Source: a virus
Virus record (IMG/VR): IMGVR_UViG_3300031576_000002
Coordinates: 1-64,000 of that record
Reading direction: 5' to 3' (one strand)
Length of the DNA: 64,000 nucleotides
The position numbers and the translations under genes were made by a program. Below are positions 2,098 to 51,688 of the stretch, in pieces. The notes beneath the pieces are model-generated. The model ran no database searches. It saw only the letters and a list, made by a program, of their open reading frames with translations, and was not told the origin of the DNA. How positions within the stretch are numbered: the first letter of the stretch is position 1; the number at the start of each line of letters is the position of its first letter.

Positions 2098-2519
2098 TCG
2101 CGCTCTCGCTCTCGGGCTTCAGCAACGGGTACAAGTGCGATCTTATCCCGTCGAAACGGTTGCCCTTTTACGGATCGGTGCTGCGTCAACCGATAGGGAG
2201 ATCCGAGAGGGCCGGGGTAGCGCAGTCGTGCGACCGCCTCCACTACTGGACCAAAGTCCAGATAGGCTTTCAGTGATTCCTCCAGCCGCCTCTCCGAGAG
2301 GAGCTGCTTCCAGTCCGTCACGAACAGGTGCAGCGAAAATAGAAAAGCCCTCAAAGCCTGGACGCCGTCTTGAGTGCTGTAGGTATCCGTGAACGCAACA
2401 CGCTGCTCGACGCCCGCTTCTCCTGTAAAGCGTACATCCGCCAGGAGAGCGACCTCCGCGTTCGAGCGGTAGTCGGGGCGCACCCACAACACGTCATATT
2501 TTTGGGGGGTCAGCAGCAA
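2061..2519 (-). CDS. Unknown protein, TTG start proposed
   Basis: About 152 aa. The open frame extends further upstream, but a TTG at 2519 preceded by GAGG nine bases earlier fits better: it keeps the overlap with the upstream gene (ending at 2494) to 26 bases and removes an arginine- and serine-rich shadow segment. The centre contains a typical alpha/beta pattern and the C-terminus is strongly charged (E-R-E-R-E-W followed by K-K-S-K). Family not recognised. Confidence 0.5.
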   Translation of the reverse strand: MLLTPQKYDVLWVRPDYRSNAEVALLADVRFTGEAGVEQRVAFTDTYSTQDGVQALRAFLFSLHLFVTDWKQLLSERRLEESLKAYLDFGPVVEAVARLRYPGPLGSPYRLTQHRSVKGQPFRRDKIALVPVAEAREREREWLQAAKKSKDS

Positions 2520-2736
2520 CGCCGGTGCCCTCCAAACGCTGCGCGAGCGCTTCGTAGATTTTCGGATCCGCTCCGGGCAGTTCACCCAGCGCGCGCAAGA
2601 TTCCGGCGTGTGCACGTAGGACGGCCGCTGCGCTTTCCTCCGGCCCCATTCCGTACTCTTGCCTCAGCGCCCAGAAGCTCGCCATCGTCACGGATGCCGC
2701 CTTGTTGATTAGCTCTCGCCTCATCGCTCCACCCAT
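2494..2736 (-). CDS. Small helical protein downstream of TnpB insertion
   Basis: About 80 aa, all-helical with repeated alanine and leucine. The start is taken as the ATG at 2736, with another in-frame ATG at 2724. The open frame extends into the TnpB gene, but that part overlaps the insertion and is not expected to belong to this gene. A TnpB element separates it from its probable former upstream neighbour at 3951-4250, and may have altered its leader. Confidence 0.5.
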   Translation of the reverse strand: MGGAMRRELINKAASVTMASFWALRQEYGMGPEESAAAVLRAHAGILRALGELPGADPKIYEALAQRLEGTGVAADPPKI

Positions 2737-3950
2737 GCGTGACCGCTTAAGCCGCCACCTGAGCAGCACTTAAGCCATCCTCTCGCTTCACAGAGGACCT
2801 TACAAGCGTATCCTCTCCACGAAGGGACAGCAGAGCCCTGTCTAAGACATTCTTAGCAGCGTTGACATCTCTATCAAGAACCAGGTTGCAGTAAGGACAA
2901 CTGTGACTTCTTTCTCTCAAACTCTTCTTCACAGTCATTCCACATCCACTGCACTCTTGGCTGGTTCCTCTGGGATCTACTTTCACCACTATCCTACCAG
3001 CTTCTTCCGCTTTGTAGGACAGCATGTGAAGCAACATCCCCATTCCGACATCCTTGAAGCTACGTCTGAATCCACGGTTGAGCCCTTGACTCATCCCTTT
3101 CAGGTTCAGGTCTTCAACCGCAATCAGATCATAGTTCTGTACCAACTGCTTAGACACTCCGTCAAGAATGTATTTGCGGGTTCTTGTTACTTTCTGCCAA
3201 GCCTTAGCCAATACCTTGACTGCTTTTCTTCTACGGTTAGAGCCTTTCTTTCTTCTGGAAACCGTTCTCTGAGCATGCTTGAGCTTCTTCTCATTCCTGG
3301 CATAAACCCGTTGCCTCTCGATAAGGACTCCATCTGATGTAGCAACCAGAGCTTGCATGCCTAGATCAATGCCTATGACTTTGCCAGTCTTGGGGAGAGG
3401 TTCTGGAAGCGGTAGCTCACAGGATAAGACTGCGTACCAACCGTCAGCCTCTCTTTTGACTGTGACCTCTTTGACCTTAGCGTCTGGTGGAAGCTCTCGA
3501 TAAGGACTCCAACGGAAATGCCCCAGTTTGGATAGGTGAAGTCTCGGCCTATCAAACTTGAATCCAGTGCGGTTGTAGGTAAAGGAGTCGTACCGATCTC
3601 TGCTCTTGAATCTTGGAAAACCTGGCTTCTCTCCGCGCTTGACCCTTCTGAAGAAAGCCTTGTACGCTTTGTCCAGTTTCTGAAGGACTTGCTCAAGAAC
3701 TCTTGAATAGATTGTGTCATAGCCTTCTACCTGCTTGGAAACATGCTTAAGCTCCAGGCACTGATCGTAGTAGCTGAGAGTCCGCTTATGCTGCTTCCAC
3801 CCTAGGATTCGCTGTTCCAAGGCACAGTTGTAGAGGAAGCGGCATTGATCCAAGAGCCTCTGGAGGTTGATCTCCTGGGCTTTGGTCGGTTGAATCCGGA
3901 ACTTGTAGGAACGGCGCATAACTGCGGTATATCATAAATGGCTTAAGACG
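2737..3950 (-). mobile_element. TnpB-only insertion (IS605/IS607-type) between two small genes
   Basis: The space between the stop of the 3951-4250 gene and the start at 2736 is filled by a single tnpB gene with short flanks and no transposase gene (no tnpA tyrosine HUH or serine recombinase). CTTAAG-containing hexamers occur close to both ends (about 2745, 2770 and 3942). Exact ends and target site cannot be fixed from one copy. Elements of this kind move when a TnpA is supplied elsewhere, and their 3' end normally encodes the guide omega-RNA. Confidence 0.6.
2747..3919 (-). CDS. tnpB: TnpB RNA-guided nuclease
   Basis: 390 aa, the normal size for TnpB. An N-terminal helix-turn-helix-like domain opens with a lysine/arginine-rich stretch typical of the family. 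The RuvC triad appears intact: D in IGIDLG (about residue 185), E in AVEDLNLKG (about 268) and D in LDRDVNAAKN (about 350). A four-cysteine zinc ribbon (CSGC...CPYC) lies between the second and third acids. TnpB proteins cut DNA next to a transposon-associated motif, guided by an RNA from the element's right end, and favour element retention. Nothing suggests a pseudogene. Confidence 0.92.
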   Translation of the reverse strand: MRRSYKFRIQPTKAQEINLQRLLDQCRFLYNCALEQRILGWKQHKRTLSYYDQCLELKHVSKQVEGYDTIYSRVLEQVLQKLDKAYKAFFRRVKRGEKPGFPRFKSRDRYDSFTYNRTGFKFDRPRLHLSKLGHFRWSPYRELPPDAKVKEVTVKREADGWYAVLSCELPLPEPLPKTGKVIGIDLGMQALVATSDGVLIERQRVYARNEKKLKHAQRTVSRRKKGSNRRRKAVKVLAKAWQKVTRTRKYILDGVSKQLVQNYDLIAVEDLNLKGMSQGLNRGFRRSFKDVGMGMLLHMLSYKAEEAGRIVVKVDPRGTSQECSGCGMTVKKSLRERSHSCPYCNLVLDRDVNAAKNVLDRALLSLRGEDTLVRSSVKREDGLSAAQVAA

Positions 3951-15700: not shown

Positions 15701-16549
15701 TCAAGATGCACCCACTCTCCGAAAAAGATTCCAATGCTCCTGCGCAAATCGTTCCCATGTCAGATGTTTGACCAATCGCCCCTCTTCATCACTGTCGCGC
15801 AATCTGTCGAGGTACAATGACTGCACGACCTCTACCAAACTGGTCAACGATCCACGATTGTAATGAATCGCGGGATAGCTCACGGCGTAGCCAATCGGCG
15901 GAATGATCGTCTGCACTCCGCATGCAAGCGCTTCGAGCAGCGGTACGGGACCACCCTCGATGTCGGACGTGCAAAGCAGGTAGTCGAGCCCGGCGTAGAA
16001 CGCAGGCAGTTTCTCGATCTGGAACGGTTCGGCCGAAAGCCCCCAGCCTTCCCCCATGATCCGCAAGACCACATGCTCTCGCACCCAGGGGTCGAACGCA
16101 AAGCGATGAAGAAGGTCGCGTCCCTTGCGCGTATCGAGGTTGTTTGTGGGCATATCATAGGTGCGGCCTACGACTCCAAGCACGAGGCGAGGCTTGTAGA
16201 TTGGGTCAACTCCAAGCTCGATTACGGTGATCTTCTCTTCTGGAATCCCGAAACGAAGAAGATCTTGCTTGGTGTACTCGGACATCGCCACGCAGAAGTC
16301 AACCCGCTTGGCTACGTCAATGAAGATCGGGCCGAGGACTTTCGCGGAGTAGTGACAGAAGAAAGCCCCGGACTTTTTTGCGCGCCCTGGGATCCTATCA
16401 AAATAGCCGTAGTTAATCGAAAATCTGATCTCTGCGTCCAGCCAGTAGTTCTCGTTCCAGCGCACTTCGTCTGGCGCTGCGTCCCGGATAACGCGGGCGC
16501 ACTTCGGCAGAATCCAGTTGCCGGGCTCGGAACAGAGATTAACTTGCAT
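15701..16549 (-). CDS. Glycosyltransferase (GT-B fold, GT4-like)
   Basis: 282 aa from the ATG at 16549. C-terminal Rossmann domain shows the GT4 pattern: V-G-R-T near residue 140, then the helix preceding E-G-G-P-V-P-L-L-E-A-L-A-C-G (about 200-215), which binds the nucleotide sugar. Shorter than typical GT4 enzymes. Overlaps the HNH gene by 11 bases. With the GTs at 17309 and 18067 it forms a glycosylation cassette, probably for virion protein or DNA base glycosylation; acceptor unknown. Confidence 0.75.
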   Translation of the reverse strand: MQVNLCSEPGNWILPKCARVIRDAAPDEVRWNENYWLDAEIRFSINYGYFDRIPGRAKKSGAFFCHYSAKVLGPIFIDVAKRVDFCVAMSEYTKQDLLRFGIPEEKITVIELGVDPIYKPRLVLGVVGRTYDMPTNNLDTRKGRDLLHRFAFDPWVREHVVLRIMGEGWGLSAEPFQIEKLPAFYAGLDYLLCTSDIEGGPVPLLEALACGVQTIIPPIGYAVSYPAIHYNRGSLTSLVEVVQSLYLDRLRDSDEEGRLVKHLTWERFAQEHWNLFRRVGAS

Positions 16550-17312
16550 TCTGACCGGCCTTCTTAGCACGATAGCGTCTTCCGTACGCCTTCACCCTCT
16601 CCGCAAACGCAGCATCATTTTTTATCCTATTCCGTATTCTCAGGTTTCGGCACGCTTTACATATCCGGCTAGTACGAAACTTGCCTCTATTGAGTAGTAG
16701 ATTGTCTCCATCTAACCTGTGCAATCCTTTTACGCAGACATTCAGACGACTGGATACCTGGCTTGGATGATTACCACGCCTTAAATTCTCTTGAGGAGTG
16801 ACAGGCTCTAAATGCGCAGGATTCACACAAGAGGTGTTTTTACACAGATGGTCCAGGTGCAACTCGGGCGGAATAGGCGTAAGAGCAATATGTTCGTACG
16901 CCCAGCGGTGGGCTCTTACAGAAGTCCCTTTATAGTAGAATACGCCATAACCGTCTAAATCCTTCCCGGTCTTCCACTCAAAGCAGCCGCTCGCAGTTAC
17001 GGTAACGCACCTGTTAAATCTCTCCAACGCCTTCACTTCATAGCGAGAAGCATAAGGTTCCAAATGAAGTGGCCCAACACAGCGCATATTACCGCAGATA
17101 GGTAGCAACCGGGCACTCCAGGGCAAAGGACCAATCATCCGCTTGTAGATCCAGTGAGACGCAGACTCTTGACGAGGCTTGCCGCCAGAAAAAAAGTGTC
17201 TATGACTCGACTGCCATATAAGGCACCAAGAAGAATTATCAGGTTCTACCTTAGCCAAAAATCTACTAAAAGGGTCTCCCCCGCTCCCCGCAGGTCTGCC
17301 TAATTTTTTCAT
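16539..17312 (-). CDS. HNH homing endonuclease-like protein with duplicated HNH core
   Basis: 257 aa from the ATG at 17312. Second half holds a full HNH_3-type core: L-H-L-D-H-L-C-K-N-T-x-C-V-N-P-x-H-L-E-P followed by Q-E-N (about 160-185). A degenerate copy lies earlier (I-C-G-N-M-R-C-V-G-P-L-H-L-E-P, about 80-95). The cysteine pairs suit a zinc-stabilised fold, and the C-terminus has another C-x-x-C. It sits between glycosyltransferase genes, overlapping both, typical of free-standing phage homing endonucleases. AT-richer than its neighbours, which suggests later acquisition. Confidence 0.8.
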   Translation of the reverse strand: MKKLGRPAGSGGDPFSRFLAKVEPDNSSWCLIWQSSHRHFFSGGKPRQESASHWIYKRMIGPLPWSARLLPICGNMRCVGPLHLEPYASRYEVKALERFNRCVTVTASGCFEWKTGKDLDGYGVFYYKGTSVRAHRWAYEHIALTPIPPELHLDHLCKNTSCVNPAHLEPVTPQENLRRGNHPSQVSSRLNVCVKGLHRLDGDNLLLNRGKFRTSRICKACRNLRIRNRIKNDAAFAERVKAYGRRYRAKKAGQNAS

Positions 17313-18094
17313 CTCTTTCCTGCCTCTCGTGCAGCTACCAACTTTTCTATCAACTCCCCGTGCCGCAGCTTGATCCACATCGAATTCTCATAGTAAAAAC
17401 TGTGCGTAGGCTTCCCATAACTACGACTACGCCAGTGCCAAATAGGATGTTCTCGCTGACAGACCACTCGCCAGCCCCGCTCTTGAACTTGCAGACACGC
17501 CTCACAGTCTTCCCAAGAATGCGGAAAAAATAGTTGGAAGCCGCCAATCTCCTCCCACAGACTACGAGGCATGAATAACCCACACCCAGTCACGCCCTCC
17601 ACATAAGCGCTCACCTGATACTCCGGCCGGTCATCCTCGAACTCGGCGATATGGTGCCAGCTTCCATCTGCCCGGTACTCCGTACCCACATGGCCCAACT
17701 TGCCCGTATCGGGAAACAGATGCTTCACCCCTATTATACCGGCGCGCTCAAAACGACTGAAGCAAGCTAGGGTTGCGCCTAGCCACTCAGGGTCTCGAAA
17801 CTCCAGATCCGTGTTCATGTGCGCGACGTAGGGCGTCGTCGCCATTGCGAACACACGATTGACTAGAACCGCGGACATTCCCGTTCTAGCAAAGCGCTCG
17901 TACTCGATCGGATAACTGACCTTCTTGCGAACGGCCTCGACCAGATCGTAGATAGGCTCGGTCGAGCCATCATCCACGATGACAGCGACAAAGTCGCGAT
18001 ACGTCGTCTGGTCGAGCGTTTCCAGCGCCACGCGCAGGAGCGCCGCCTGATTGTAAGTCGGGAAGACTAGAGTGACTGCGGCGGAGTAAACCAT
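17309..18094 (-). CDS. Glycosyltransferase family 2
   Basis: 261 aa from the ATG at 18094. V-F-P-T-Y-N-Q (about 12-18), V-D-D-G-S-T (about 48), and H-M-N-T-D-L-E-F (DxD-like metal and sugar-nucleotide site, about 110) are diagnostic for GT2, with W-E-D-C-E as the likely catalytic acid segment (about 205). Inverting transfer from a nucleotide sugar is expected. Overlaps the GT4-like gene upstream by 28 bases. Confidence 0.88.
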   Translation of the reverse strand: MVYSAAVTLVFPTYNQAALLRVALETLDQTTYRDFVAVIVDDGSTEPIYDLVEAVRKKVSYPIEYERFARTGMSAVLVNRVFAMATTPYVAHMNTDLEFRDPEWLGATLACFSRFERAGIIGVKHLFPDTGKLGHVGTEYRADGSWHHIAEFEDDRPEYQVSAYVEGVTGCGLFMPRSLWEEIGGFQLFFPHSWEDCEACLQVQERGWRVVCQREHPIWHWRSRSYGKPTHSFYYENSMWIKLRHGELIEKLVAAREAGKR

Positions 18095-19203
18095 GTCTTG
18101 TGCGCCAGCTCGTCGTACATTTTTGAGAGGGCTTCTGCGGCTCGCGCCCAATCAAAGTTATCTTGCACGTACTTCTGCGACTCGTCAGTCAGTGGCGCTT
18201 CGACCGCATTCGAGATCGCGTCTGCGATCGAGGAGATCGAACTGGGCTCGCAGAGGAATGCACCTGGAAATTCCTCGAAGTAGGTCTGACTCGTCAGCAC
18301 AATCTTACAGCCCGCCAGCGCGGCTTCCAGGGCTACGTTAGGCATCGGGTCGAACGTAGACGCCAGCACCAGAATCCGGCTCTGCCTGTACAGGTCCGCC
18401 AGCTTCGCCCGGCTCAGGTTGCCGGCGTAGTTGAAGCGGTACTTTCGGCACTGCGACCAGTAGGCGGCATCCAGCACTGGACCCGCTAGAGTAGGAACGA
18501 TGCCATGACGTTCGCAGGCTTGCAGCACCAGCTCCTGATTCTTCCGGGGACTGATGCTGCCCGCGATCAGTACCTCGACGGGCCTGTCAGCGTCCAAGTC
18601 GCCCTGGAAGCTGGAATCGACGCCTTTCGTGAGGATTCGGAACTGCACTGCGCCGTCCAGCCCCGGGTACTCCGCCGTCAGAACTTGCCGCTCTCGGGCG
18701 GAGTAGACGAGAAGCGCGGTGGCTCTTTCCAGTACCGCCCTGACTTTGGAAGGCTCTGGGATTCGATGGATGAAGCGGGGGAAGTAGATTGGGGTGACGA
18801 GATAAGGGCGATCTCTCCGCCAGATTTCTACCGCCGCGCTCAGCGTCCAGGGCCATGCTGCATTGTAGAGATGGTAGATCGGAAACGTCGCCGCGCTACT
18901 AACCTCGGAAGCACACGGCGCTTGGATTCCTATTTTGTCGAGCGCGGTGCGGAACCCGTCCATCTCGACAAAGTCGCCGCCATCCCACGAGGATCGGTCT
19001 CGATTGACGAAGAGAACTTGGGCACCCGTTACCGTTTTGGCTGCAAGGTCTTTCCGCGAGAAGGGTTCCAACAGCATGCGGGAGCGGGAACGTGAAAACG
19101 CATGCGCAGCCCCACGTCGCGCCTCCTCCATGCGAAGCGCATGGATCTGGGCTCTACGAGTAGGAGGGGGTGCGAACGGCAGCTTGCCAACAGTGCGCGC
19201 CAT
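18067..19203 (-). CDS. Glycosyltransferase family 4
   Basis: 378 aa. A basic, disordered N-terminus (about 45 residues) precedes a GT-B fold. Characteristic segments: V-L-I-A-G-S-I-S-P-R-K-N-Q (about 210, the nucleotide-sugar loop with R and K), F-D-P-M-P-N-V-A-L-E-A-A-L-A-G (about 300, EX7E-type motif). An alternative GTG start lies one codon upstream. Transferred sugar and acceptor unknown; grouped with two other transferases. Confidence 0.82.
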   Translation of the reverse strand: MARTVGKLPFAPPPTRRAQIHALRMEEARRGAAHAFSRSRSRMLLEPFSRKDLAAKTVTGAQVLFVNRDRSSWDGGDFVEMDGFRTALDKIGIQAPCASEVSSAATFPIYHLYNAAWPWTLSAAVEIWRRDRPYLVTPIYFPRFIHRIPEPSKVRAVLERATALLVYSARERQVLTAEYPGLDGAVQFRILTKGVDSSFQGDLDADRPVEVLIAGSISPRKNQELVLQACERHGIVPTLAGPVLDAAYWSQCRKYRFNYAGNLSRAKLADLYRQSRILVLASTFDPMPNVALEAALAGCKIVLTSQTYFEEFPGAFLCEPSSISSIADAISNAVEAPLTDESQKYVQDNFDWARAAEALSKMYDELAHKTWFTPPQSL

Positions 19204-19262
19204 CACTGCCCGCGCTCGGCAAGTTCTCTAGGGGGCACTGCTGCGATAACAACCATAGCAGT

Positions 19263-20423
19263 TCAGCCTCCCTTTTCCGCTAACTCATTAAGTCTGCCTA
19301 CAGGCGTAGGCAGCCCGCCAATAAGGGCATAGACACGTAATGCAGCACTGAACGCGGCCCCAGTGTAGACACCCCTGTGAATTGTTACACCTTTGCGGCC
19401 CATCATTTCAGCCAATGCCGCGATACCGTACTCAACATCCTGGGCTTTCACCTTGGAAAGAACATCTGCGGAGCCCACTGCCAGAGCAGCGCCCAGCTTG
19501 GCCTTCGAGAGATCGAAGCCCTCAGCCAGCATGCCACGCTCCATGTTTTTTCGGATCGCTTCCGACAACTTGGTCGCGGAAGGATCCTTCACGTCCATGG
19601 CGCCAAACATGACCGTACCGCTACCAAGCACAGTACCCAGGTCACGGCGATCGAACGCCATGTCCGCAGGCGTAGCTGCCAAAACCGTGAACGCTTGCAG
19701 CATCGACAGCACGGCCAGATTCGGCTTCTCCCACTTCATCGTCAAAGAAAGGTTCGGCCAAATCTTCGGTATCCGGTTGTTGTCCACGACAATGAGCGGC
19801 GTCAGCTCGCCGCGATCGACCTTATCGAAGAGTGTCGTCAGAACCCTGTGCGCGTTGCGGCAAACGCCGGGCTGCTCCGTCGTCTGTGGAATCGTCACGA
19901 TTGCGCCGATTCTCGGATAAGCCGGATCAGGCCGCTCCAAGGTCTCGGTGTAGCGCTTGACCGTGTCGAAGATGTTCTGCCGGCCTTCCTTTTCAATCAT
20001 CGCGCCAGAGCCACTGCCGCCACCAGAACCGCTCGCGCAGAGTACGACCTCCACGTTTGCGCCGAGGCTGGTATGCAGCAGGTCGAAGATCGCGTCGCGC
20101 GCTTCATGGATCAAGTCGAGGCCAACATCGGGATTCTTTCCTGCGCCTCCGGTGTCTCCCGCAAGCAGCTTGCGCTCTGCGGGAAGAGCCTTGAGCTGTT
20201 CGAGGTCGCCGGGCGCGGTATTGATCGCGCAGACACGTCGCCAGCCAAGTCGCCAAGCGGTCTCCGCTAGACGGCCGCCTGCCTGGCCGATTCCTACGAA
20301 TCCAATTCGCACCGCGGACTGGAACGTATCCTCGTGCGGATCGACAACGGTTTCGATCTCCGGCAGCTCGAAACTCGCCAGCGCGTCAAGTCCCGTCTTT
20401 GGCTCAGTCATCCCGTCCCCCAT
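19263..20423 (-). CDS. FtsZ/TubZ-like tubulin-family GTPase
   Basis: 386 aa. Residues 38-50 (I-G-F-V-G-I-G-Q-A-G-G) form the first nucleotide loop and residues 131-141 match the tubulin/FtsZ signature (G-S-G-G-G-S-G-S-G-A). P-L-I-V-V-D-N-N (about 210-217) matches the FtsZ core, and A-D-M-A-F-D-R-R-D-L (about 253-262) sits where the T7 loop supplies the catalytic acid. GTP-dependent filaments are expected, for DNA partition or positioning as in phage PhuZ and TubZ. The start may instead be the ATG at 20411. It ends 56 bases before the glycosyltransferase gene. Confidence 0.85.
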   Translation of the reverse strand: MGDGMTEPKTGLDALASFELPEIETVVDPHEDTFQSAVRIGFVGIGQAGGRLAETAWRLGWRRVCAINTAPGDLEQLKALPAERKLLAGDTGGAGKNPDVGLDLIHEARDAIFDLLHTSLGANVEVVLCASGSGGGSGSGAMIEKEGRQNIFDTVKRYTETLERPDPAYPRIGAIVTIPQTTEQPGVCRNAHRVLTTLFDKVDRGELTPLIVVDNNRIPKIWPNLSLTMKWEKPNLAVLSMLQAFTVLAATPADMAFDRRDLGTVLGSGTVMFGAMDVKDPSATKLSEAIRKNMERGMLAEGFDLSKAKLGAALAVGSADVLSKVKAQDVEYGIAALAEMMGRKGVTIHRGVYTGAAFSAALRVYALIGGLPTPVGRLNELAEKGG

Positions 20424-20424
20424 T

Positions 20425-21108
20425 TCAGGCTTCCGCGCCTTCTTCCATTTTGCGGTACGTGTAGTAGTAATCGCGCAGCTCTCTCCCTGAAAGATTTTTA
20501 ACCTTTTGTACTATCTCCGTCTTAGCCCGTTCAGGGTGCTGCTGCACAACCATACGAGTCAGGTGTTCCCGCAAGTTCTCTTCCTCGGAAGGCCCCCAGG
20601 TACGAGGCCATGCCCCGTACCTACGAAGATAGCGTACGAGAGCAGATCCCTTCAACAGGTAGGTAGGATGTTCTACACCTTCAGAGAAGTAATCTCCAGG
20701 CTCTGCCTGGGGGTACTCTTCCCGCTGATGTTCATAGCGTTCTGTCCCCTCTTCCGCATACTGCCAGCCTGGCACATCAGCTTCTCCGCCCTCCCCCGAC
20801 ATAACCGCCAACAACCCGTAAGCTCGAATCTGAGAATCGGTCACGGCATGCAGATCAGTCCCTAGACCATTCGCAATGCACGAGACCATCGCTGTCAGGG
20901 ATCTATCGACATCTCTCTTCTCGGCCGCAAAAACAAGTTCCGGCAGTTCTATTCCTGCCTCCTCGTACTCCTCGTAGGCGCCGCTTGCGTTCGGCCCTAC
21001 GCCGGGCAAAAGGCCAAACGCGCGAATGCTTTCCTCATGAAACGTACAAGTACCGTGCACCAAAGTCTTAGACGCCAAAAGACTTAGGGCACGCTGAATA
21101 GATTGCAA
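20425..21108 (-). CDS. ADP-ribosyltransferase-like protein, tentative
   Basis: 227 aa. L-V-H-G-T-C (about 17-22) followed by a helix and I-R-A-F-G-L-L-P resembles the His-Gly-Thr strand of the ADP-ribosyltransferase fold (compare KptA and phage MuF-type toxins: H-G-T-S...I...G-L). V-F-A-A then lies where an F/Y-x-A strand is expected, and the third acidic site is not evident. It directly follows the portal gene (3 bases), where phages often have an internal head protein with such domains. Tentative. Confidence 0.4.
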   Translation of the reverse strand: MQSIQRALSLLASKTLVHGTCTFHEESIRAFGLLPGVGPNASGAYEEYEEAGIELPELVFAAEKRDVDRSLTAMVSCIANGLGTDLHAVTDSQIRAYGLLAVMSGEGGEADVPGWQYAEEGTERYEHQREEYPQAEPGDYFSEGVEHPTYLLKGSALVRYLRRYGAWPRTWGPSEEENLREHLTRMVVQQHPERAKTEIVQKVKNLSGRELRDYYYTYRKMEEGAEA

Positions 21109-21111
21109 GTC

Positions 21112-24100
21112 TTACTCCTCGCGACCACCCAGCAAGTCCTTCGACCCTATCGAGCCTTCCTCGGTTCCATGCAGCGACTTCTCAAGCTGTGCCTCGGCAT
21201 CTGCAAGAGCCGCCGCCTCTTCCGTAGCATCGGCGTCCGTGAGCACACCTTCAAGTGTCAGCACTTTCCGAATCGTAGCAATTTCCTCGTCGGTTCGCCC
21301 AAGGCTGACCAGCTCGGCGTCAATGTCGTCCCACTGCATCGACAGAATCTCGCCGCCCTCTGGAGCGCTTTTGAGCTGCGCCTTCTTCCCGAATTTCTTC
21401 CACTCAGGATGAGAGGTATCTCCCTCACGCAGGAGTTCCACAAGAGGTTCCACGTCTTCGTAGTGAACGCCGCAGAACTTGCCTTCTTTATCCCAGATCC
21501 TTGAAGAGATGTGATCGGACGCAACTGGAAAGCGGTAGGGATCGTGACCGTTGCCGCTCGACTTCTTGGAAGTCTTACGACTGGCCGTAGGCATTGGCGG
21601 AGCCCCCGGCAAGCCCTTCGGCCCTTCCTCGCCTTCCGCGAAGAGGTCGGGGTGCTTGTCCATGATCTCTTTCTTGTACTCCTTCTCCTCGACGATCTGG
21701 CGGCGTTCTGCGTCCAGATCGAGTCCTGCTCCGGTTGCCATCGTGCGTTCCGAAATGATTCCACGTTCCATGAGGTCCCGCCAGGTAGAGAGCAGCGCAT
21801 TGTCCTGCGTCGGCTCCAAGCGCTTGCGCCACCAAATGCGGGGAACGATGAGCTGGCTTTCCTTCTTCTGAATGCGAACGCGATGACTGAGTTCCGCCGG
21901 TGTTCGCCGGTAGAACTCGTTCATTTTCGCTATTGCGACGAAGATTTTGGGATTGATCCAGCGCCGCTCGAACATACGGCGGAAGGTTTGGAGGCGCTCA
22001 ACCATAGTCTGTAGACCTGCGACAGCACTGGCGTAGCTGGCCTCACCGAGGAGGAAAGATTTTGAAATGCCGAGACCTAAGAATTTAACGCGCTCGATGA
22101 AGTCCCATTCGCGACTGGCTGAGTTGTGGGATGAGATAAAATTCGCCAAATACAGGTGATTGCCGTCCGTTTCAAGATTATAGACATTCCCTTTGTAAGG
22201 TCTGGAAGACACATCCTTGACAGAATACTGTACCCAGTCCCCTACAACTTGATTCCCAGCACTTCTCTTAAAAGTCCCTGTATACTTTTTACCATTCAAG
22301 AGTCCGTAAAGTTTTCTAGCGCTCGCCTGCGTAAGCGTAATTGTGTGACGCTTAGGAGCGTTTACATGATTATTTCTACGATGGTACGCCTCTTCCCGGA
22401 TGCCTAAGCTAGGAGCGAACCCCGTAATCTGTAGCAGTCTTACCAACTGTGAAGCTAGCCAAGGCGAAGTAGTAGAGGCCATAAGAGAAAGACTTTCCCA
22501 CTTCATTACGTATTTGCGCGTCCAGCCATCTCCAAGAAAATAGCCTTTCAAAAGTTCAAGCTGGAGGTCTTCCTCCCAGCAAAAAATACTTCTATGCAGC
22601 CACTTCTCTTGTGAGTATTTATCGGCGTATTTAATCAAAAGCTCTGTCATCTTACGAGCGGGCTCTTTCGGGTAGCAGCCCCGGACGTGAACTCCGTTAC
22701 CATAGGCTTTGTAAACTGCGGGCTTTACTCCAAACTCTTTCCGCATAATGTCCATAATGTCTTTTATGATTGTCGTGTCGCTCTTATCCAGGGCAATAGA
22801 AATCCCAGCATCACGGTTCCTATTGACGGATACCGCACATCCATCTGCAAGATAGTATCCGATCAGACGAGCTACATCGGGCGATACAGGTCTAGTCTTT
22901 TTCCCTTTTATATGTCTCGGCGCGACGAGCAGGTCGCCCGCGCGGATTTCAGACGCGGGCGCCTCAGTCGGTACCGCACACGAAGAATATCGAAATTTTG
23001 AAAAAAATTTACCGCAATAGCCATTATGCTTTCTAGGCTTTGCCTTCTTACAAGGCTCCCCATTTTTATAGCAGGGCGGCCTTTTAATGACGAGCAGCCT
23101 GTGTTCAGCGGTCACGCAAACAGGCTCCGGCAAACCTTGTACGCACAGTGTTACCATAGTACCCTTGTATTTTAAGGGTTTCACATTCAACGCCTTTACC
23201 GGCGTACCAGAGCCTCCTTGTAGAATCGTATCAGGCTCCACAAATTCTATAGGGCACTGTGTTCCGTCCTCCAGCGTGATAAGCGTTCCAGCCGGATGAC
23301 ACAAAAGGCGATCACTTACACCAACAAGCTCCACACTCAATCCGTAATTATAAACGATTGCCGCGAATGGATCCGTCTCGGCAATCGCCAACATGTTAAG
23401 AAACGACTCTTCGTCGGACTTAGACGGTAAAAATCCCGTAGCGGGGTCTCCGAGTTTGAAGATTCTAAGAGGGGCGGCATTACGCTGCGCGACTGCCAGA
23501 TAGGCATTGATTAGGAAATCGCTGACCATCTGAATCTGGTATAGCCTTGACAACATGCTCGTGCCCAGATGGGTATACGGTGAAATCTTTCGAGCAATAT
23601 ATGTGGCATTCAAAGGATCCAGAGGTATTGGAATTCCTGCAATCGCGTAATGAATGATCTTGGGCGGCAATTTTGCCCTCGCCCTCACAAGCCTCGGATC
23701 TTGACTGGTCGCCAATGCTCGCAATTCTGGAGTCGGCTTCAAGTCAATAACAGGCTCGAAACCGGGTACTGGTACAGGAGTTACTGCAAGGTAGTCAGGA
23801 TTGTAAACCAGCAGGTTAGACCAATAATTCTTACGAGTGTCATAGATAAGATGAGGCACAACTTTTCCAGTAATCAGATACTCTCTTGCCAATTCCGGAA
23901 GCCAGCTTAAAAGATTGAGATCCGACATCATACTCTCATAAATCTCTTTGACTCGCGGATCATCTTCGAGCCCGAGAAGATCAAATTCCGAGAACGGAAG
24001 CTCGCTCCAGACGTCCAAGGCCGCCCCCACCGCAGGATCGCTGCGGTACATGTGCCGCCAAATTGCATTGGCCTGCACTTCACTACGGGGGTAGTAGAAC

Positions 24101-24396
24101 TTGTCTGGCGTCGAGTAGCGTGGATCGTAATAGATCGGCGTACTGATCTGCGCCGTAGACCTTCCCCCCGCGACCGTGCCCGACGTAAAGCCTGCATTCG
24201 TCGCAGACGCAGAACTCCCAAATCCTCCGAACGGGTCGGACTGCTGCGCGGTTCGGTGGAACCCGCGCCGGGTGTAGACCGCACCTGTTGCTCTAGGCTC
24301 GGAGGAGAATCCGCCTCGTGCCGACGTCTCATTGAAGAGACGCGACATGAAGTCACCTGACGCTTGATCGCGGTATTTTTTACCGTCGTTCGCCAT
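21112..24396 (-). CDS. Portal protein with in-frame LAGLIDADG intein
   Basis: 1094 aa from the ATG at 24396. Host protein is about 700 aa after splicing. The N-extein (residues 1-365) shows a portal-like core (Y-Y-P-R-S-E-V-Q-A-N-A-I-W-R-H-M-Y, V-P-H-L-I-Y-D-T-R); the C-extein continues with E-R-V-K-F-L-G-L-G-I-S-K-S-F-L-L-G-E and ends in a charged coiled tail. Portal rings are the capsid vertex through which DNA is packaged. The terminase is 10 kb upstream in transcription, separated by accessory genes. Confidence 0.85.
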   Translation of the reverse strand: MANDGKKYRDQASGDFMSRLFNETSARGGFSSEPRATGAVYTRRGFHRTAQQSDPFGGFGSSASATNAGFTSGTVAGGRSTAQISTPIYYDPRYSTPDKFYYPRSEVQANAIWRHMYRSDPAVGAALDVWSELPFSEFDLLGLEDDPRVKEIYESMMSDLNLLSWLPELAREYLITGKVVPHLIYDTRKNYWSNLLVYNPDYLAVTPVPVPGFEPVIDLKPTPELRALATSQDPRLVRARAKLPPKIIHYAIAGIPIPLDPLNATYIARKISPYTHLGTSMLSRLYQIQMVSDFLINAYLAVAQRNAAPLRIFKLGDPATGFLPSKSDEESFLNMLAIAETDPFAAIVYNYGLSVELVGVSDRLLCHPAGTLITLEDGTQCPIEFVEPDTILQGGSGTPVKALNVKPLKYKGTMVTLCVQGLPEPVCVTAEHRLLVIKRPPCYKNGEPCKKAKPRKHNGYCGKFFSKFRYSSCAVPTEAPASEIRAGDLLVAPRHIKGKKTRPVSPDVARLIGYYLADGCAVSVNRNRDAGISIALDKSDTTIIKDIMDIMRKEFGVKPAVYKAYGNGVHVRGCYPKEPARKMTELLIKYADKYSQEKWLHRSIFCWEEDLQLELLKGYFLGDGWTRKYVMKWESLSLMASTTSPWLASQLVRLLQITGFAPSLGIREEAYHRRNNHVNAPKRHTITLTQASARKLYGLLNGKKYTGTFKRSAGNQVVGDWVQYSVKDVSSRPYKGNVYNLETDGNHLYLANFISSHNSASREWDFIERVKFLGLGISKSFLLGEASYASAVAGLQTMVERLQTFRRMFERRWINPKIFVAIAKMNEFYRRTPAELSHRVRIQKKESQLIVPRIWWRKRLEPTQDNALLSTWRDLMERGIISERTMATGAGLDLDAERRQIVEEKEYKKEIMDKHPDLFAEGEEGPKGLPGAPPMPTASRKTSKKSSGNGHDPYRFPVASDHISSRIWDKEGKFCGVHYEDVEPLVELLREGDTSHPEWKKFGKKAQLKSAPEGGEILSMQWDDIDAELVSLGRTDEEIATIRKVLTLEGVLTDADATEEAAALADAEAQLEKSLHGTEEGSIGSKDLLGGREE
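22123..23301 (-). other. Intein with LAGLIDADG homing endonuclease inside the portal
   Basis: 393 aa. Starts with Cys (C-H-P-A-G-T-L-I), block B has T-A-E-H, and the C-terminus is S-S-H-N followed by Ser as +1 nucleophile. Two LAGLIDADG-like motifs: L-I-G-Y-Y-L-A-D-G and L-K-G-Y-F-L-G-D-G. The DNA is clearly AT-richer than both exteins, a sign of recent arrival. Removal restores a continuous portal sequence between S-D-R-L-L and S-A-S-R-E-W. All splicing residues appear present. Confidence 0.93.
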
Positions 24397-24422
24397 TGTA
24401 TTTAACCGCCCCACATCCCACA

Positions 24423-24821
24423 CTACCTAAAAATAGCCCAATCCTTAGACTCCTCAGCATCCGGAAAGTAAGCGATCCAGGCAGGTACAGGTATTCTCAG
24501 CAGGTACCCCACTTGTAGGCGATGATTGCCTTCAATCCCGTGAGGTCCGATAACAACAGGGCGCCGGAAGCCTACTTTTCTCACACTTTTCAGAAGACCT
24601 TCTAGTCTTTTCAGAGGCTCCGCTTGAAAAAAATCTCTCACCATATCTCCAGCCACGAACGGGTCTACCTGATCGCGCCGCCACACGATTATATCTTCTT
24701 CACTTACATCCAAAGTCGCTAATGCTTCATCTCTCACATTCGCTGGGAGTTCGGAAGTCTTCAAGTCAGCAGAGCTTCTCAGTGTACTTGCCACTTTTAG
24801 CAGACTATTCATTAGATTCAC
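24423..24821 (-). CDS. ParB/Srx-fold domain protein
   Basis: 132 aa, GTG start overlapping the upstream stop as GTGA (ATG available three codons later). The pattern R-R-P-V-V-I-G-P-H-G-I-E-G-N-H-R-L-Q-V-G (about 85-105) matches the ParB/sulfiredoxin core that binds CTP or ATP. The usual R of G-x-x-R is replaced by G-N-H-R. Located just upstream of the portal gene. Could act as a partition, nuclease or head-completion protein. Confidence 0.6.
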   Translation of the reverse strand: MNLMNSLLKVASTLRSSADLKTSELPANVRDEALATLDVSEEDIIVWRRDQVDPFVAGDMVRDFFQAEPLKRLEGLLKSVRKVGFRRPVVIGPHGIEGNHRLQVGYLLRIPVPAWIAYFPDAEESKDWAIFR

Positions 24822-34664: not shown

Positions 34665-36680
34665 CTACAGACTCCTTCGGAATCGAATGACGCCGCCAAA
34701 CTTCTCCCTGGCTGGAAGTTGAGCGTACCGGGAAATGTGGACGCCTGCGTTAGCGACGATTTCGTTCCTACGGCGCCGCATGTCCTTGGCGTCCTCGAAA
34801 ATGTCTTGCGTCGCTAAACGGTGGACGCCGACAAAGCAGATTGCAAGGTCGCTGCTCCCGCCCCGGGGATGGTCCACCCGCTTCTCATTGGCACGCTCTA
34901 GCTGCCTCAGCTCGTAGTACGCCTTCGTCGCCGGTGCGTCTCGAAGCGCGGGGTCGTACTGAGGGCGTTCAGGCGCGGGCAGCTCGATCCGTCTTCCAAT
35001 TGCGTCGGCCGCAAAACGGTCGTAGTCATCTACATTGATGTTGTGCTCGTCTACTTTCAAGCCCGCTGCACGTAGCTGCTGGATCAAATAGACCGAGTTC
35101 CAGTGGTCGTAAGTTATTTGCGCAATGTTAATGTGCTTGCGCAGGTCCTGGAGAAACTTGAGCGTAGACGGAAAATGAACTTCCCTTACAGGCGCTACTA
35201 CACCGCGCGGTGGACGCAACGGGCGAAACTCAATGCACGCATCGTAGACCACGTGGTAGTGGGGAAGTTTCCCTTCTAGGTGCCCAATCACGATTCCGAA
35301 ACTGTCCGACCTATAACCAGGGTCGCAGTGGATCCAGCGCGGAATCACGCGATCCGTCCTGCACTTGTCAAGTACCATCCGAACATACGGATGATCGGCC
35401 TCCTCAAAAAATTCTTCCCTGCAAGTCAGCAGCGGTTTCCGCATTGTCGTGATTGCTTCCACAGCCCCTTCTGGAAGAAGGCGGGGACGAATCCCAAGTG
35501 GCTTCGCCATGAAGTCCCGCTCGGCACCTACAGGATCCGCTTCAAGAGCGGCGGCAAAGTCCTCCTGCGTAAACTCCGGATTCATCTCTGGCGTCGTGTA
35601 GTGACGGAAGAAAATTTTGAGACCTGGAAATTGACGGGCGTTACGCCCCAGGCGCATGATCTTATCTTCGTCGTGAATCGGCGAGGAGATCGAAAACATC
35701 ATCGGCTTACAGGGGGGAAGGACTCCGCGGCGCAGTAAGAACTTGTAACGCCCTTGCAACGTCTTGAGAGAGTGCGAAAGCACTCGGTAAACTTCGTCCG
35801 CACTGATCTTGGAGTCGCCCAGGCCGAAGCGGGCTAGCTCGTCAAGGTAGCAAGCAAGTCGGGTACTTCCCGCTAGCCCAGAAGAGTTGCTATTCCGGCT
35901 CACGCAGACAAATCCTTTTTCTATAAAGTCGATACGACTCTCGGCTTCATCGTCGAACAGGGCCTTACCTGTCTCCATTTCCCTTCGACGCAAGTCTGAA
36001 AGGTAGATTTGAAACCATGGACTACCGTAAAGAAATTGCTTGAAGTTGGCCCAAATCGTGTCTTTCGTCTGTAGTGCGGTACTCGCTACAAATGCAATCT
36101 CGATTGGAGGCCCTGACATCAAACCAAAGGCTTTTCGTACTGTAGAAGGAAGCCCTAGTAGACGGTGGACAAGATAAGATCCATCCCTGCCTGCGTAAAA
36201 GCTCTTACCCGCACGCATACCCGAGATAAGTACAAACTCCTCGTAGTCCGTTAAACGCTCCGCTCGTAGACAGTCCAAGCGGGTAATCCCGCACTCTAGG
36301 CATACGTCATTCTTGAAAATGATCTGCTTTGAAAAATCCTGCTGGTCTAACGGAATACGACGAATAGCTTCTACATCCTGGCAGTAGGGACACAGTAATT
36401 CGTAAAAATCGCGGAAAATTTCGTGGCTTCTCGGGTAGAGCGCTGGACCCGCGCTCAACTCTTCTCCCGTGTACAAAAACCCGGGAGTCTCGATCCAGTC
36501 GATGACGTTGGTAGCCTGCCTGGCAGCAGGCGACGCCGTGGGCGCGGTATTGGCATTGCTCGGATCGAGCCGAGCAATCTCGTCTAGGATCGGACTTGTC
36601 CGCCGCTCTAGCGAGTCAGACTTGCCCGTCTGCTGGCTTTTCGTCCTGCGGCGCGATTTTGACGGGCCACCGAGGCTCAA
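34665..36680 (-). CDS. terL: Terminase large subunit
   Basis: 671 aa. Start TTG 36680 has GGAAGGA seven bases upstream and overlaps the WYL gene by 65 bases. Disordered basic N-terminus, a zinc-ribbon-like C-P-Y-C...C-L-E-C insertion (about 95-130), then Walker A S-G-M-R-A-G-K-S (about 153-160), Walker B C-Y-L-D-E (about 275), and a RNase H-like nuclease with D in H-C-D-P-G-Y (about 448), D in T-Y-D-H-W (about 525) and D in G-S-S-D-L-A (about 608). It pumps and cuts DNA during capsid filling. Confidence 0.93.
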   Translation of the reverse strand: MSLGGPSKSRRRTKSQQTGKSDSLERRTSPILDEIARLDPSNANTAPTASPAARQATNVIDWIETPGFLYTGEELSAGPALYPRSHEIFRDFYELLCPYCQDVEAIRRIPLDQQDFSKQIIFKNDVCLECGITRLDCLRAERLTDYEEFVLISGMRAGKSFYAGRDGSYLVHRLLGLPSTVRKAFGLMSGPPIEIAFVASTALQTKDTIWANFKQFLYGSPWFQIYLSDLRRREMETGKALFDDEAESRIDFIEKGFVCVSRNSNSSGLAGSTRLACYLDELARFGLGDSKISADEVYRVLSHSLKTLQGRYKFLLRRGVLPPCKPMMFSISSPIHDEDKIMRLGRNARQFPGLKIFFRHYTTPEMNPEFTQEDFAAALEADPVGAERDFMAKPLGIRPRLLPEGAVEAITTMRKPLLTCREEFFEEADHPYVRMVLDKCRTDRVIPRWIHCDPGYRSDSFGIVIGHLEGKLPHYHVVYDACIEFRPLRPPRGVVAPVREVHFPSTLKFLQDLRKHINIAQITYDHWNSVYLIQQLRAAGLKVDEHNINVDDYDRFAADAIGRRIELPAPERPQYDPALRDAPATKAYYELRQLERANEKRVDHPRGGSSDLAICFVGVHRLATQDIFEDAKDMRRRRNEIVANAGVHISRYAQLPAREKFGGVIRFRRSL

Positions 36681-37908: not shown

Positions 37909-39097
37909 TTCAGTAGGAGTTTAGCCGTGCTAAACCGCTACCCTTTCCTGAGTTGCAGCTTCCTCTCTACAAGCAAGATCCGCGTATGGTTGAAAGCCAG
38001 CAACCCTACCAAGATCACGAATGTTCTTGGCAGCGATGGTATCCGCAGGACCAGCATATCCGCAGCGGATACACTTGAACCAACCCCTTTCAGGACGGTT
38101 CTTCTTGTCAATACAGCCGCATTCAGTACAAGTTCTGGAAGTGTTCCTGGGATCGACCAAGACCACAGGAACTCCACATCTTCTTCCCTTGTACTGAATG
38201 AAGCTCCTCAACTGGTAGAAGCTCCAAGAGTGATGTTGACGCCGCTGAGCCTTTCTCACAGTTACTCTCTCCGTGATTCCAGTAAGGTCTTCCAAAGCAA
38301 CGGCACGGAGAGTGTCCTTGGCTTTCGTCACCACCTTCTTAGAGGTGCAGTGATTCACGTCTCTACCAAATCTGGACTCTTTACTTCTCCTCTTTCTGAG
38401 GAGCCTTTTTGCTGACTTGGTCCCTTTGGCTTGCAATTTTGCTCTTAGCTTGGAATGCCGATGTCTAAGCCCATTCACACGATCACCGGAGTAGGTGTCT
38501 CCGTCGGAATCGGCAAGGATATTCTTGACACCAAGATCGCAACCAAGAACATCTTGAGTCTGGATGAGAGGGGCCTCTGGAATGTCAAGAACTTGGTGGA
38601 TGTAGAAACGACCATCTCTGAATACCAAAGTTCCGTCTAGCTTACTGGAAAGATCGACTTGGAAAGGATTATGGAATCGGTAACGGCTTCCGTAGATGAG
38701 AATGGTTCCATCCCTCTTGCAGCTATGCCTGTGAACTGGAATCGCAGAATGTGGGCGGAACTTGACCTGTTTAAGGGCTCTCGGTCTGAAACTCTTGCCG
38801 TGCTTTTTCTTGAGCCTTTGGTTGGTAGACCTGAGCTTGGTTCTGGCTGTCTTGTAAGCAAAGGCAACTCTACGAGCTACTCTTTGTGCCTGGACTCCGG
38901 TAAGGTCGAAAAGTTCCTTGATCTCTCTATAGACCAAGTTGTTGAGAACAACCCACTGAAAAGTCTTTTCTTGGAGCGCAACCGCAGAGACATAGTTACA
39001 GGCTTGGTTGAAGACTTCCACCCTGGAGAGGAGTCCAGAAGTATCTGAAAGCGGGATCTGGAAGGTCAGGTGCATGGCACTAGATTAAACTACCTCA
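37909..39097 (-). mobile_element. TnpB-only element inserted into an imperfect hairpin
   Basis: The two halves of a hairpin surround this element: 18 identical bases at 37891-37908 and 17 at 39098-39114, also found together without interruption at 61537-61578 (7 bases between). The right end carries a 7-bp stem with a 3-base loop (GTTTAGC/GCTAAAC, 37919-37935), which overlaps the stop codon, as expected of IS200/IS605-type ends. No transposase gene is present. Confidence 0.75.
37930..39075 (-). CDS. tnpB: TnpB RNA-guided nuclease, second copy
   Basis: 381 aa. RuvC acids: D in G-C-D-L-G-V (about 178), E in A-L-E-D-L-T (about 262), D in P-A-D-T-I-A-A-K-N (about 346). Four-cysteine zinc ribbon C-T-E-C...C-I-R-C (about 314-337). 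Basic middle segment rich in R and K. Sequence is clearly distinct from the 2747-3919 TnpB. Complete by all markers. Confidence 0.92.
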   Translation of the reverse strand: MHLTFQIPLSDTSGLLSRVEVFNQACNYVSAVALQEKTFQWVVLNNLVYREIKELFDLTGVQAQRVARRVAFAYKTARTKLRSTNQRLKKKHGKSFRPRALKQVKFRPHSAIPVHRHSCKRDGTILIYGSRYRFHNPFQVDLSSKLDGTLVFRDGRFYIHQVLDIPEAPLIQTQDVLGCDLGVKNILADSDGDTYSGDRVNGLRHRHSKLRAKLQAKGTKSAKRLLRKRRSKESRFGRDVNHCTSKKVVTKAKDTLRAVALEDLTGITERVTVRKAQRRQHHSWSFYQLRSFIQYKGRRCGVPVVLVDPRNTSRTCTECGCIDKKNRPERGWFKCIRCGYAGPADTIAAKNIRDLGRVAGFQPYADLACREEAATQERVAV

Positions 39098-49666: not shown

Positions 49667-49854
49667 GGATCTCGCTTCCCAGACGCACGTATGTCTTCGT
49701 CGATCAGATTTTCGATCTGCCTGTGCAGGTCCGCGCTGACTTGTTCAAGGTCTTCACCATCAGCGACAGTCGTTGTGATACTGGTGGAGAATTCGACGGA
49801 CTGGTAGTCAGCCGACACTCTCTTGACTACGCCCTTGCTCAGCTTCAACGGCAT
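49618..49854 (-). CDS. Small beta/alpha protein
   Basis: 78 aa. Two predicted strands (V-K-R-V-S-A-D-Y-Q-S-V-E-F-S) followed by helices; it overlaps recA by 47 bases and the downstream helical protein by 49. Resembles short phage recombination accessory proteins, but is unassigned. Confidence 0.5.
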   Translation of the reverse strand: MPLKLSKGVVKRVSADYQSVEFSTSITTTVADGEDLEQVSADLHRQIENLIDEDIRASGKRDPWIQRIVTKAFQVKSA

Positions 49855-51688
49855 GGGGTTTCTCGCGCAGGGCTCGCCGGACCTCTTTCAAAAACTCGGG
49901 ATCTTCGCTGAGCGCCTGCTTTAGCTTTTCGCGACCGATGTAGCTTCTCCCCAGCAGCGTGAGTTTTCTACGGTCGCCTTCTACTATACCGCGTGAGATT
50001 GCGGCGCGAAGAACGCCGGAAACCACGTCGATTCCAGTTTTGTAATTGAGGATGACCTCGGCCTCTCCGCCTGGAGGGGCAAACTTGTTTTTCACTACTT
50101 TGATCTTGACCGTGTGCGCGTCTGGAATTTTATCTCCGCCGGCACGACTTACCCGCACGCTGAGCGCCTTCCAGTGTTTCAGCGCTCTCCCGCCGGGCTG
50201 ATCTTCGGGACTGCCCCACATGACATTCACTTTGCTACGGAGCTGGTTGATGAATACCAACACGGTACTCGTCTTGTTAAGACGGGGAGCGATCTTCGCA
50301 AGTCCGTGCTGGACAAGGCGTGCTTGCAGGCCGGGAATCTCTTTGTCCTCGACATCTCCCGCAACGACCCGGGCAGGCGTCACGACTGCGATCGAGTCCA
50401 CCACGATCACGGCGTAGCGATCCTGGTCGATCAGCGCGTAGAGCAGATCGAAGAAGCGTTCGCCACTGGGAACGCCGTCTGAATTCTCGGGAAGGCCCTT
50501 GACCCGCACCAACCGCTTGCGCTGAATTCCAAGCGTCCGCATCCAAGTAGGAGGAGTTGCCTGCTCCAGATCGCAGTAGACACACGGTTTCTTCAAGTCC
50601 TTTTGAATAGAGCCAATCATGTGAAGCATGAGCGCCGACTTCCCTGAATTGTGAACAACGAAACCATTTGCTACATAATTGTTGAACGGGCTTGCCACCC
50701 TCAAGTCGTATGTTCGGCATTTGCCCGCTTTACGAATGACAGAAATGTGATCCTCTACTGCCACAAAACGTAGATTGTTGTGCCGTTCAAGTGCATGCTC
50801 CCTTCCATGCGCGCTGGGCGACATTACAACAAGATTTTCTAATGCGTCATTTTTACAGTCTTCGTCTAGGTGGTGTACGTGCTCTGCTTGAGATAAGAAC
50901 TTTAACCCTTCAAGCCGCCCGTCGTTAAGAAGCCGAACATACTCCTTAAACGATAGTCCGTTCAAAGCAGCTTCCACGACAGCCCTGGAACGCCTTAGCC
51001 TGCGGTAGGTGTAGCATTTGCCCGCTGTGCCAGGCACTCTCTTAGTAGGGGCGTTGGGATGGAACTTCACAAAAATGTCAATTCGACTAATAGCTGGAGT
51101 ACGCTCGCGCACACGGTACGGAGTACGATTGTGGATATAAACTGAGTCACCTACTACCAAATCGGCCAAAGCTGTATAGCACTCACCTGTCCAGAATTTG
51201 TGCTCAGGTGTAGCTTTTAGACGGTACCCCTTAAACGTCTCAACTTCTAGGCATTGCCGCACACCCGTCGAGATTACATCCACAACTCTATTTTGAAAAA
51301 TACGCCCCTCTTCGTTCACGCAAGAAGTAAAAAAGTATGAATCGACTATAGCAGAGCGCTTATACATCCCTAGTCCTGACATCGGAATCCCGTGAAAACG
51401 GTTGTACAGCCGCTCAACCGTCCCCCCTTTGCAGCTTTGACGCCGCCCTTCTGGGGTTCGCGTGCCATAGCGTATAAAAGTGCTAGCCTCCACGCAGGAT
51501 TCCGGACCCCAGGCTTCCACAATCTTGCCTTGGGGAAGGCCCCCAATTCCAGTAGCTACATCAAAATCCTCGATGCCAGTCGAGTAGACGCGGGTGTACT
51601 GATCGTCTGCCTCAAATCCTCGTCCGATGCAGGGACCGAATTTGGCCACCAGTCCGTCTAACTCGTTCTTTTTCTTTTCTTCTTTCAT
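49808..51688 (-). CDS. recA: RecA recombinase with in-frame HNH intein
   Basis: 626 aa, 343 after splicing, the normal RecA size. The intein (residues 65-347) divides the Walker A motif, G-P-E-S before it and S-G-K-S after it. C-extein shows Walker B V-I-V-V-D-S-I-A (about 430), L-R-S-K (L2 region) and the typical C-terminus. Strand exchange in phage recombination and repair. Unspliced protein cannot bind ATP. Confidence 0.95.
   Translation of the reverse strand: MKEEKKKNELDGLVAKFGPCIGRGFEADDQYTRVYSTGIEDFDVATGIGGLPQGKIVEAWGPESCVEASTFIRYGTRTPEGRRQSCKGGTVERLYNRFHGIPMSGLGMYKRSAIVDSYFFTSCVNEEGRIFQNRVVDVISTGVRQCLEVETFKGYRLKATPEHKFWTGECYTALADLVVGDSVYIHNRTPYRVRERTPAISRIDIFVKFHPNAPTKRVPGTAGKCYTYRRLRRSRAVVEAALNGLSFKEYVRLLNDGRLEGLKFLSQAEHVHHLDEDCKNDALENLVVMSPSAHGREHALERHNNLRFVAVEDHISVIRKAGKCRTYDLRVASPFNNYVANGFVVHNSGKSALMLHMIGSIQKDLKKPCVYCDLEQATPPTWMRTLGIQRKRLVRVKGLPENSDGVPSGERFFDLLYALIDQDRYAVIVVDSIAVVTPARVVAGDVEDKEIPGLQARLVQHGLAKIAPRLNKTSTVLVFINQLRSKVNVMWGSPEDQPGGRALKHWKALSVRVSRAGGDKIPDAHTVKIKVVKNKFAPPGGEAEVILNYKTGIDVVSGVLRAAISRGIVEGDRRKLTLLGRSYIGREKLKQALSEDPEFLKEVRRALREKPHAVEAEQGRSQESVG
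50648..51496 (-). other. Intein with HNH endonuclease inside RecA
   Basis: 283 aa. Begins with C-V-E-A-S-T-F-I and ends V-V-H-N before Ser. Block B has T-P-E-H. The endonuclease is HNH type (H-V-H-H-L-D-E-D-C-K-N, N-L-V-V-M-S) in contrast to the LAGLIDADG portal intein. Clearly AT-richer than the exteins. All splice residues conserved. Confidence 0.93.

Follow-up and report, generated by a model that had tools for sequence, protein, structure and literature searches.

The 64-kb window analyzed here, the first part of a 205,227-base virus record, encodes a 386-aa protein that has a predicted tubulin fold and belongs to a clade of large-phage tubulins which, judged by sequence comparison, is apparently both widespread and undescribed. 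Phage tubulins have been described as TubZ and PhuZ types (PMC7950403, PMC7824862); a 2025 survey treats tubulin as a distinguishing feature of Chimalliviridae, with a handful elsewhere (PMC11835377), and the marine jumbo-phage tubulins reported are those of the phiKZ-like cluster (PMC9123017). The clade was not found described in the literature searched, which left out most subscription papers and preprints. Two features set its members apart: the company the gene keeps, which in the largest subgroup is that of phage head genes, and the placement of the protein's tail, which in most of them is N-terminal rather than C-terminal.

The protein and its clade

The preliminary description of the window proposed a phage-encoded GTPase of the tubulin/FtsZ superfamily with both the signature loop and the T7 loop present, and this was correct. 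The Pfam Tubulin family, PF00091, matches the protein at 33.6 bits (E 6e-8), narrowly above its cut-off of 33, and matches no other ORF in the 205,227-base record; the two loops read GGGSGSG and FDRRD (Table 1). A PHROG search matched no family. The ORF translation starts at an ATG; a second ATG at 20411 (M5), preceded directly by GGGGGACGGG, is an equally plausible start. Structure prediction, the check that had been suggested, returned a confident tubulin fold (AF2, 18-sequence alignment: pLDDT 90.5, pTM 0.90). Foldseek places TubZ 2xka first among solved structures (E 4e-23, TM 0.75), with CetZ and FtsZ next, and of the 681 PDB chains found at E <= 0.001 the best 50 are all TubZ, CetZ or FtsZ. 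The core had also been thought nearer to FtsZ than to PhuZ. The T4 loop agrees with that, and so does a tblastn search of the record with phiKZ PhuZ, which gave nothing above noise; the comparison is incomplete, however, because profile and fold point at least equally to plasmid TubZ. A tblastn query with phiKZ chimallin (gp54) also drew a blank, although a distant chimallin could escape it. Among the viral models of BFVD the best match is A0A6J5RW92 ('FtsZ Cell division GTPase', from an uncultured Caudovirales phage), at TM 0.83 and 26% identity; PhuZ models reach TM ~0.54. At that level of similarity A0A6J5RW92 is probably a member of the clade, known as a database entry.

Table 1. Features at and around the tubulin locus (positions in the window)
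Feature	Position	Strand	Basis
Glycosyltransferase, group 1/4 type	15701..16570	-	phrog_2170 8e-10; PF13439 2e-7
Glycosyltransferase family 2	17309..18151	-	PF00535 5e-14
Glycosyltransferase group 1, 56 nt downstream of tubulin	18067..19206	-	PF13692 5e-10
Tubulin/FtsZ-superfamily GTPase, 386 aa	19263..20423	-	PF00091, AF2, Foldseek, tree
T7 catalytic loop FDRRD (D258, D261), residues 257-261	19641..19655	-	alignment
T4 signature loop GGGSGSG, residues 134-140	20004..20024	-	alignment
T3 loop GAGKNPDVG, residues 93-101	20121..20147	-	alignment
T1 loop GIGQAGG, residues 44-50	20274..20294	-	alignment
Acidic N-terminal tail, residues 1-37 (1 K/R, 9 D/E)	20313..20423	-	alignment; AF2 low-confidence region
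N-tail motif LPEIE (psi-P-x-psi-[PED]), residues 20-24	20352..20366	-	motif count + shuffles
227-aa protein between portal and tubulin, family not assigned	20425..21108	-	ORF call
Portal protein split by LAGLIDADG intein	21112..24423	-	phrog_16240 1.9e-80; PF14528, PF14890
Terminase large subunit	34665..36680	-	phrog_17415 3e-46

Scanning viral contigs with the window tubulin alone gave no match, a two-sequence alignment recovered phage G alone, and among the 50,697 deposited phage records of INPHARED the only match was gp138 of Bacillus phage G, at 23-24% identity. What opened up the clade was a degenerate DNA pattern, followed by alignments A4 and A6. The pattern yielded three contigs with close relatives (31-36% identity), and an alignment of these yielded more, among them contigs of 332,730, 301,683 and 223,260 bases and one contig of a Phycisphaerae MAG. 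Applied to IMG/VR, alignment A6 gave 353 candidate stretches, 328 of which were confirmed by tblastn; these 328 may include more distant TubZ-type proteins, of which the best 80, retained for analysis and 31-36% identical to the window protein, appear free. A second large set of TubZ-like genes, on viral contigs of 85-140 kb (L046, L077, L037, L072 and others like them), is related to a Bacillus pumilus plasmid gene (L021), and its carriers are probably plasmid-prophages of Bacillus.

Across the clade the catalytic apparatus is intact: 85 of the 86 loci surveyed retain the T4 glycines, the DN of T6 and both T7 aspartates, and the one exception is a shortened sequence. A 40-sequence tree unites the window, large-phage and Phycisphaerae proteins with support of 99/98, leaving FtsZ/CetZ, the TubZ groups, the phage G group and PhuZ outside; a 52-sequence tree with more members recovers the same clade (97/92). 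The phylogeny that had been proposed, with FtsZ, CetZ, TubZ and PhuZ included, places the protein in a separate clade that contains none of FtsZ, TubZ and PhuZ. In both trees PhuZ is a separate group (100/100) with the window protein outside it. AU tests gave p 0.23 and 0.12 for PhuZ as the sister of the clade, and p 0.07 and 0.16 for FtsZ in that position; the best trees show FtsZ separate.

Gene order and tails

The link to head genes dominates in the largest subgroup, and a link to glycosyltransferases recurs in several large phages, not in all. A member of one family of portal-sized ORFs (~658 aa) is found upstream, adjacent to the tubulin or nearly so, in 64 of the 86 loci, and it is itself preceded by the terminase large subunit (phrog_2, PF03237) in 44 of the 86. 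Most of the 64 loci make up one marine subclade, with five lineages at 60% identity, and so are not independent cases. Its size, and a position in which one would look for a portal, make the 658-aa ORF a candidate portal; it matches no family, and against the portal of the window hhalign gives E 0.028 and a probability of 2%. Downstream of the tubulin, where contigs are long enough, come a 508-aa protein that reads as protease- or scaffold-like and a cement protein (PF22758), as well as a capsid-like protein with a weak match (PF25209, E 0.002, below the cut-off). Two further arrangements place the tubulin one gene from the portal: portal - 227 aa - tubulin in the window phage, and tubulin - 261 aa - portal - protease - capsid in the contig L083, where the portal call was read from sequence. 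In several members, and in G002 besides, the surroundings of the tubulin showed no recognizable head gene.

In the window phage, 3 nt separate the portal from the 227-aa ORF, and 1 nt separates that ORF from the tubulin. The 227-aa protein has no Pfam family and no PDB match to TubR; by eye only, its N-terminal LVHGTCTFHEESIRAFGLLPG stretch recalls ADP-ribosyltransferase/KptA-like proteins. Elsewhere the record encodes a family A DNA polymerase (phrog_17), DnaB and UvsX, and a profile search of it found no tyrosine integrase and no ParA. The portal intein is in-frame, at about residues 372-770 of the ORF; an HNH endonuclease gene (16539-17378, minus strand) sits between glycosyltransferase genes; a UvsX-like recombinase ORF (49808-51688, minus strand) has an HNH domain at residues ~250-310, probably another intein or inserted endonuclease; and a transposase-type gene (phrog_506; 37930-39075, minus strand) lies within the structural region. 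L083 also has an HNH-like ORF (2441-3298), which there adjoins the tubulin.

The gene had been described as set among glycosyltransferases, which is true of its downstream side but not of its upstream side, where the portal is one gene away. Glycosyltransferase or sugar-nucleotide genes adjoin the tubulin in the window phage, L083, L084/L088, L085/L086 and L087, and all four glycosyltransferase matches of G003 lie within 9 kb of it. A functional partnership was nevertheless discounted: the tubulin of G003 and that of G004 sit at the margin of a glycosyltransferase cluster, in G002 the nearest match is ~18 kb off, and the window phage has other glycosyltransferase genes away from the tubulin locus. 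The adjacent ones probably serve separate late or host-surface functions.

Past its core the window protein continues for 5 residues, and the clade medians are 7-9 aa, with exceptions in L084/L085 and L087 (56-68 residues); FtsZ, PhuZ, phage G and most plasmid tubulins continue for 30-70. At the other end, phage members carry an N-terminal tail with a median of 48 aa and a net charge of about -8 to -12. The motif psi-P-x-psi-[PED], placed 18-27 residues ahead of the core, is present in 12 of the 18 non-redundant phage tails and in all seven long-tailed Phycisphaerae tails, against means of 1.2 and 0.2, respectively, in shuffled tails, none of 1000 shuffles scoring as high. A first form, [LIVMF]P.[LIVF][ED], was dropped as not significant (3 of 18, equaled in 156 of 2000 shuffles), and the widened one, with P, E or D in fifth position, was picked after the tails had been seen, which makes its P value too favorable. 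In the motif's favor is its fixed distance from the core.

Copies in Phycisphaerae

Some members of the clade are bacterial. The Phycisphaerae genes have housekeeping genes as neighbors—glycolysis, histidine and cysteine-tRNA genes, ruvC/ruvA, signal peptidases—and are therefore chromosomal. Their products are 31-34% identical to the window protein over ~380 residues and have the N-tail motif in common with it; they are unlike it in setting and in their long Lys/Ala/Thr-rich N-tails, which reach 307 aa with 107 K/R and 10 D/E and resemble histone H1 (examples are L125, L127, L131 and L141). In L141 a tandem pair immediately precedes ATP synthase genes, and its second copy has a degraded T4 loop. 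G009-G012 have, in the same Phycisphaerae genomes, a second locus (e.g. G010:C7:119568-120497) with shorter, diverged tubulin paralogues of 351-394 aa.

The Phycisphaerae proteins form a single group (100/99) that branches from among the phage proteins, and trees in which one branch separates off every phage protein are rejected (AU p 0.005 and 0.003). If the root lies outside the clade, this pattern would fit a transfer from phage to bacterium. A question raised in the literature is by what means Phycisphaerae divide in the absence of FtsZ, and whether some other protein is the driver (PMC6952346); the chromosomal copies bear on it, though the gene is present in only a small fraction of the class. 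PF00091 matches are present in 9 of the 21 genomes (MAGs) near the Phycisphaerae MAG; the eight best, when read, all proved to be in the large-phage tubulin clade, and no canonical FtsZ was seen among these eight. A class-wide division protein this is not: 12 of the 21 close relatives lack any PF00091 match, and the clade profile matches 8 of 198 genomes of the class.

Our joint reading, offered tentatively and with the odds against it, is that the clade constitutes a third, abundant kind of phage tubulin, housed in a head-assembly operon and with its partner-binding tail now N-terminal, and that FtsZ-less Phycisphaerae acquired a copy whose histone-H1-like tail would bind DNA, for chromosome segregation or division.

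Possible roles and known tubulins

In this superfamily the T7 loop acts solely in the next subunit, and tubulin-fold proteins with a complete T7 normally polymerize. Since the T7 loop is intact here, the protein can be expected to work as a GTP-driven filament. The head-gene surroundings suggest that it acts late in infection, neighborhood being no proof of joint function, and this late setting, together with the capsid trafficking known for PhuZ—a precedent cited in a review (PMC13282480)—makes the organizing of capsids, packaging machinery and DNA the most likely task. We give about an even chance to a late-expressed filament of this kind, with the N-tail as its docking site; the tubulin fold and the place in the clade are far more certain. 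The gene would be co-transcribed with late head genes. Its product would form head-to-tail polymers in which each subunit uses its T7 aspartates to set off GTP hydrolysis in the adjoining one, and the N-terminal tail would assume the partner-docking role that the C-terminal tails have in FtsZ and TubZ. In the course of lytic infection the dynamic filament might then gather procapsids, portal and packaging machinery and phage DNA, or it might hold the assembly site.

That the protein is instead a TubZ-type partition motor, segregating a plasmid-like prophage or a pseudolysogenic genome, seems unlikely, though several likenesses lean that way. The closest solved folds are those of plasmid TubZ (TubZ-Bt 2xka/3j4s; RepX 4ei7), the clade profile scores best against 4ei7 (E 8e-27), and the T1 loop is of the GQxGG type common to many plasmid relatives. 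Most TubZ-like relatives on Bacillota plasmids have a ~100-aa gene upstream, and in phage G (L002 7809-9236) gp138 comes directly after gp137, a weak match to TubR 4asn (E 0.002); phage G therefore probably has a tubRZ partition pair. The window locus is unlike this. There is no TubR-sized gene upstream and, between 17000 and 21300, no centromere-like repeat array but only two-copy families of 12-23 nt; the TubZ C-terminal tail is missing, integrase and ParA were not found, and the gene sits with structural genes. The protein is ~18% identical to solved TubZ, falls in a separate clade, and stays below the cut-off of the TubZ-like C-terminal family PF22453 (20.6 bits against 26).

It is a little harder still to credit that the protein is an FtsZ mimic, which would poison or redirect host division and so keep or enlarge the infected cell. 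FtsZ has the superfamily and the T3, T4 and T7 loops in common with it; TIGR00065 FtsZ is its best NCBIfam match, albeit far below the equivalog cut-off (60.9 against 295.2 bits); and the psi-P-x-psi of the N-tail resembles, by eye only, the C-terminal peptide of FtsZ (IPAF in E. coli). The resemblance is at the opposite end of the protein, however, and the C-terminal linker and conserved peptide themselves are missing, with 5 residues past the core where E. coli FtsZ has 59. Moreover, early genes rather than the portal would be the likely neighbors of an inhibitor, and the full conservation of the catalytic site across the clade suggests active cycling.

The head-gene neighborhood would also suit a GTPase that does not form filaments and acts as a head-assembly factor or virion component; we consider this improbable, a complete T7 loop being normally a sign of polymerization. 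A PhuZ-type spindle of a nucleus-forming phage is very improbable: the phage is large, and the AU tests tolerate PhuZ as a sister, but the strongly supported PhuZ group leaves the clade out, the T4 loop and tail layout differ, the phiKZ chimallin query finds nothing, and the DNA polymerase belongs to family A.

The FtsZ-like 1/2 (Tubulin_2) families are marked by PF13809 or by a long C-terminal extension (Makarova and Koonin, PMC2875224); the window protein does not match PF13809 up to E 1, and it ends after the core. Phage G gp138, labeled 'FtsZ-like' in INPHARED, groups with Bacillus plasmid and prophage tubulins and has, besides its TubR-like neighbor, a C-tail of 54 aa. PhuZ, like the window protein, is a tubulin of large phages, with GGASGS in phiKZ PhuZ where the window protein has GGGSGSG, and with a C-tail of 30-33 aa against 5. 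In its capsid trafficking PhuZ would nonetheless be the closest functional parallel, without the phage nucleus, and a clade so linked to head genes suggests that cytoskeletal organization of virion assembly is far commoner than thought, with no phage nucleus needed.
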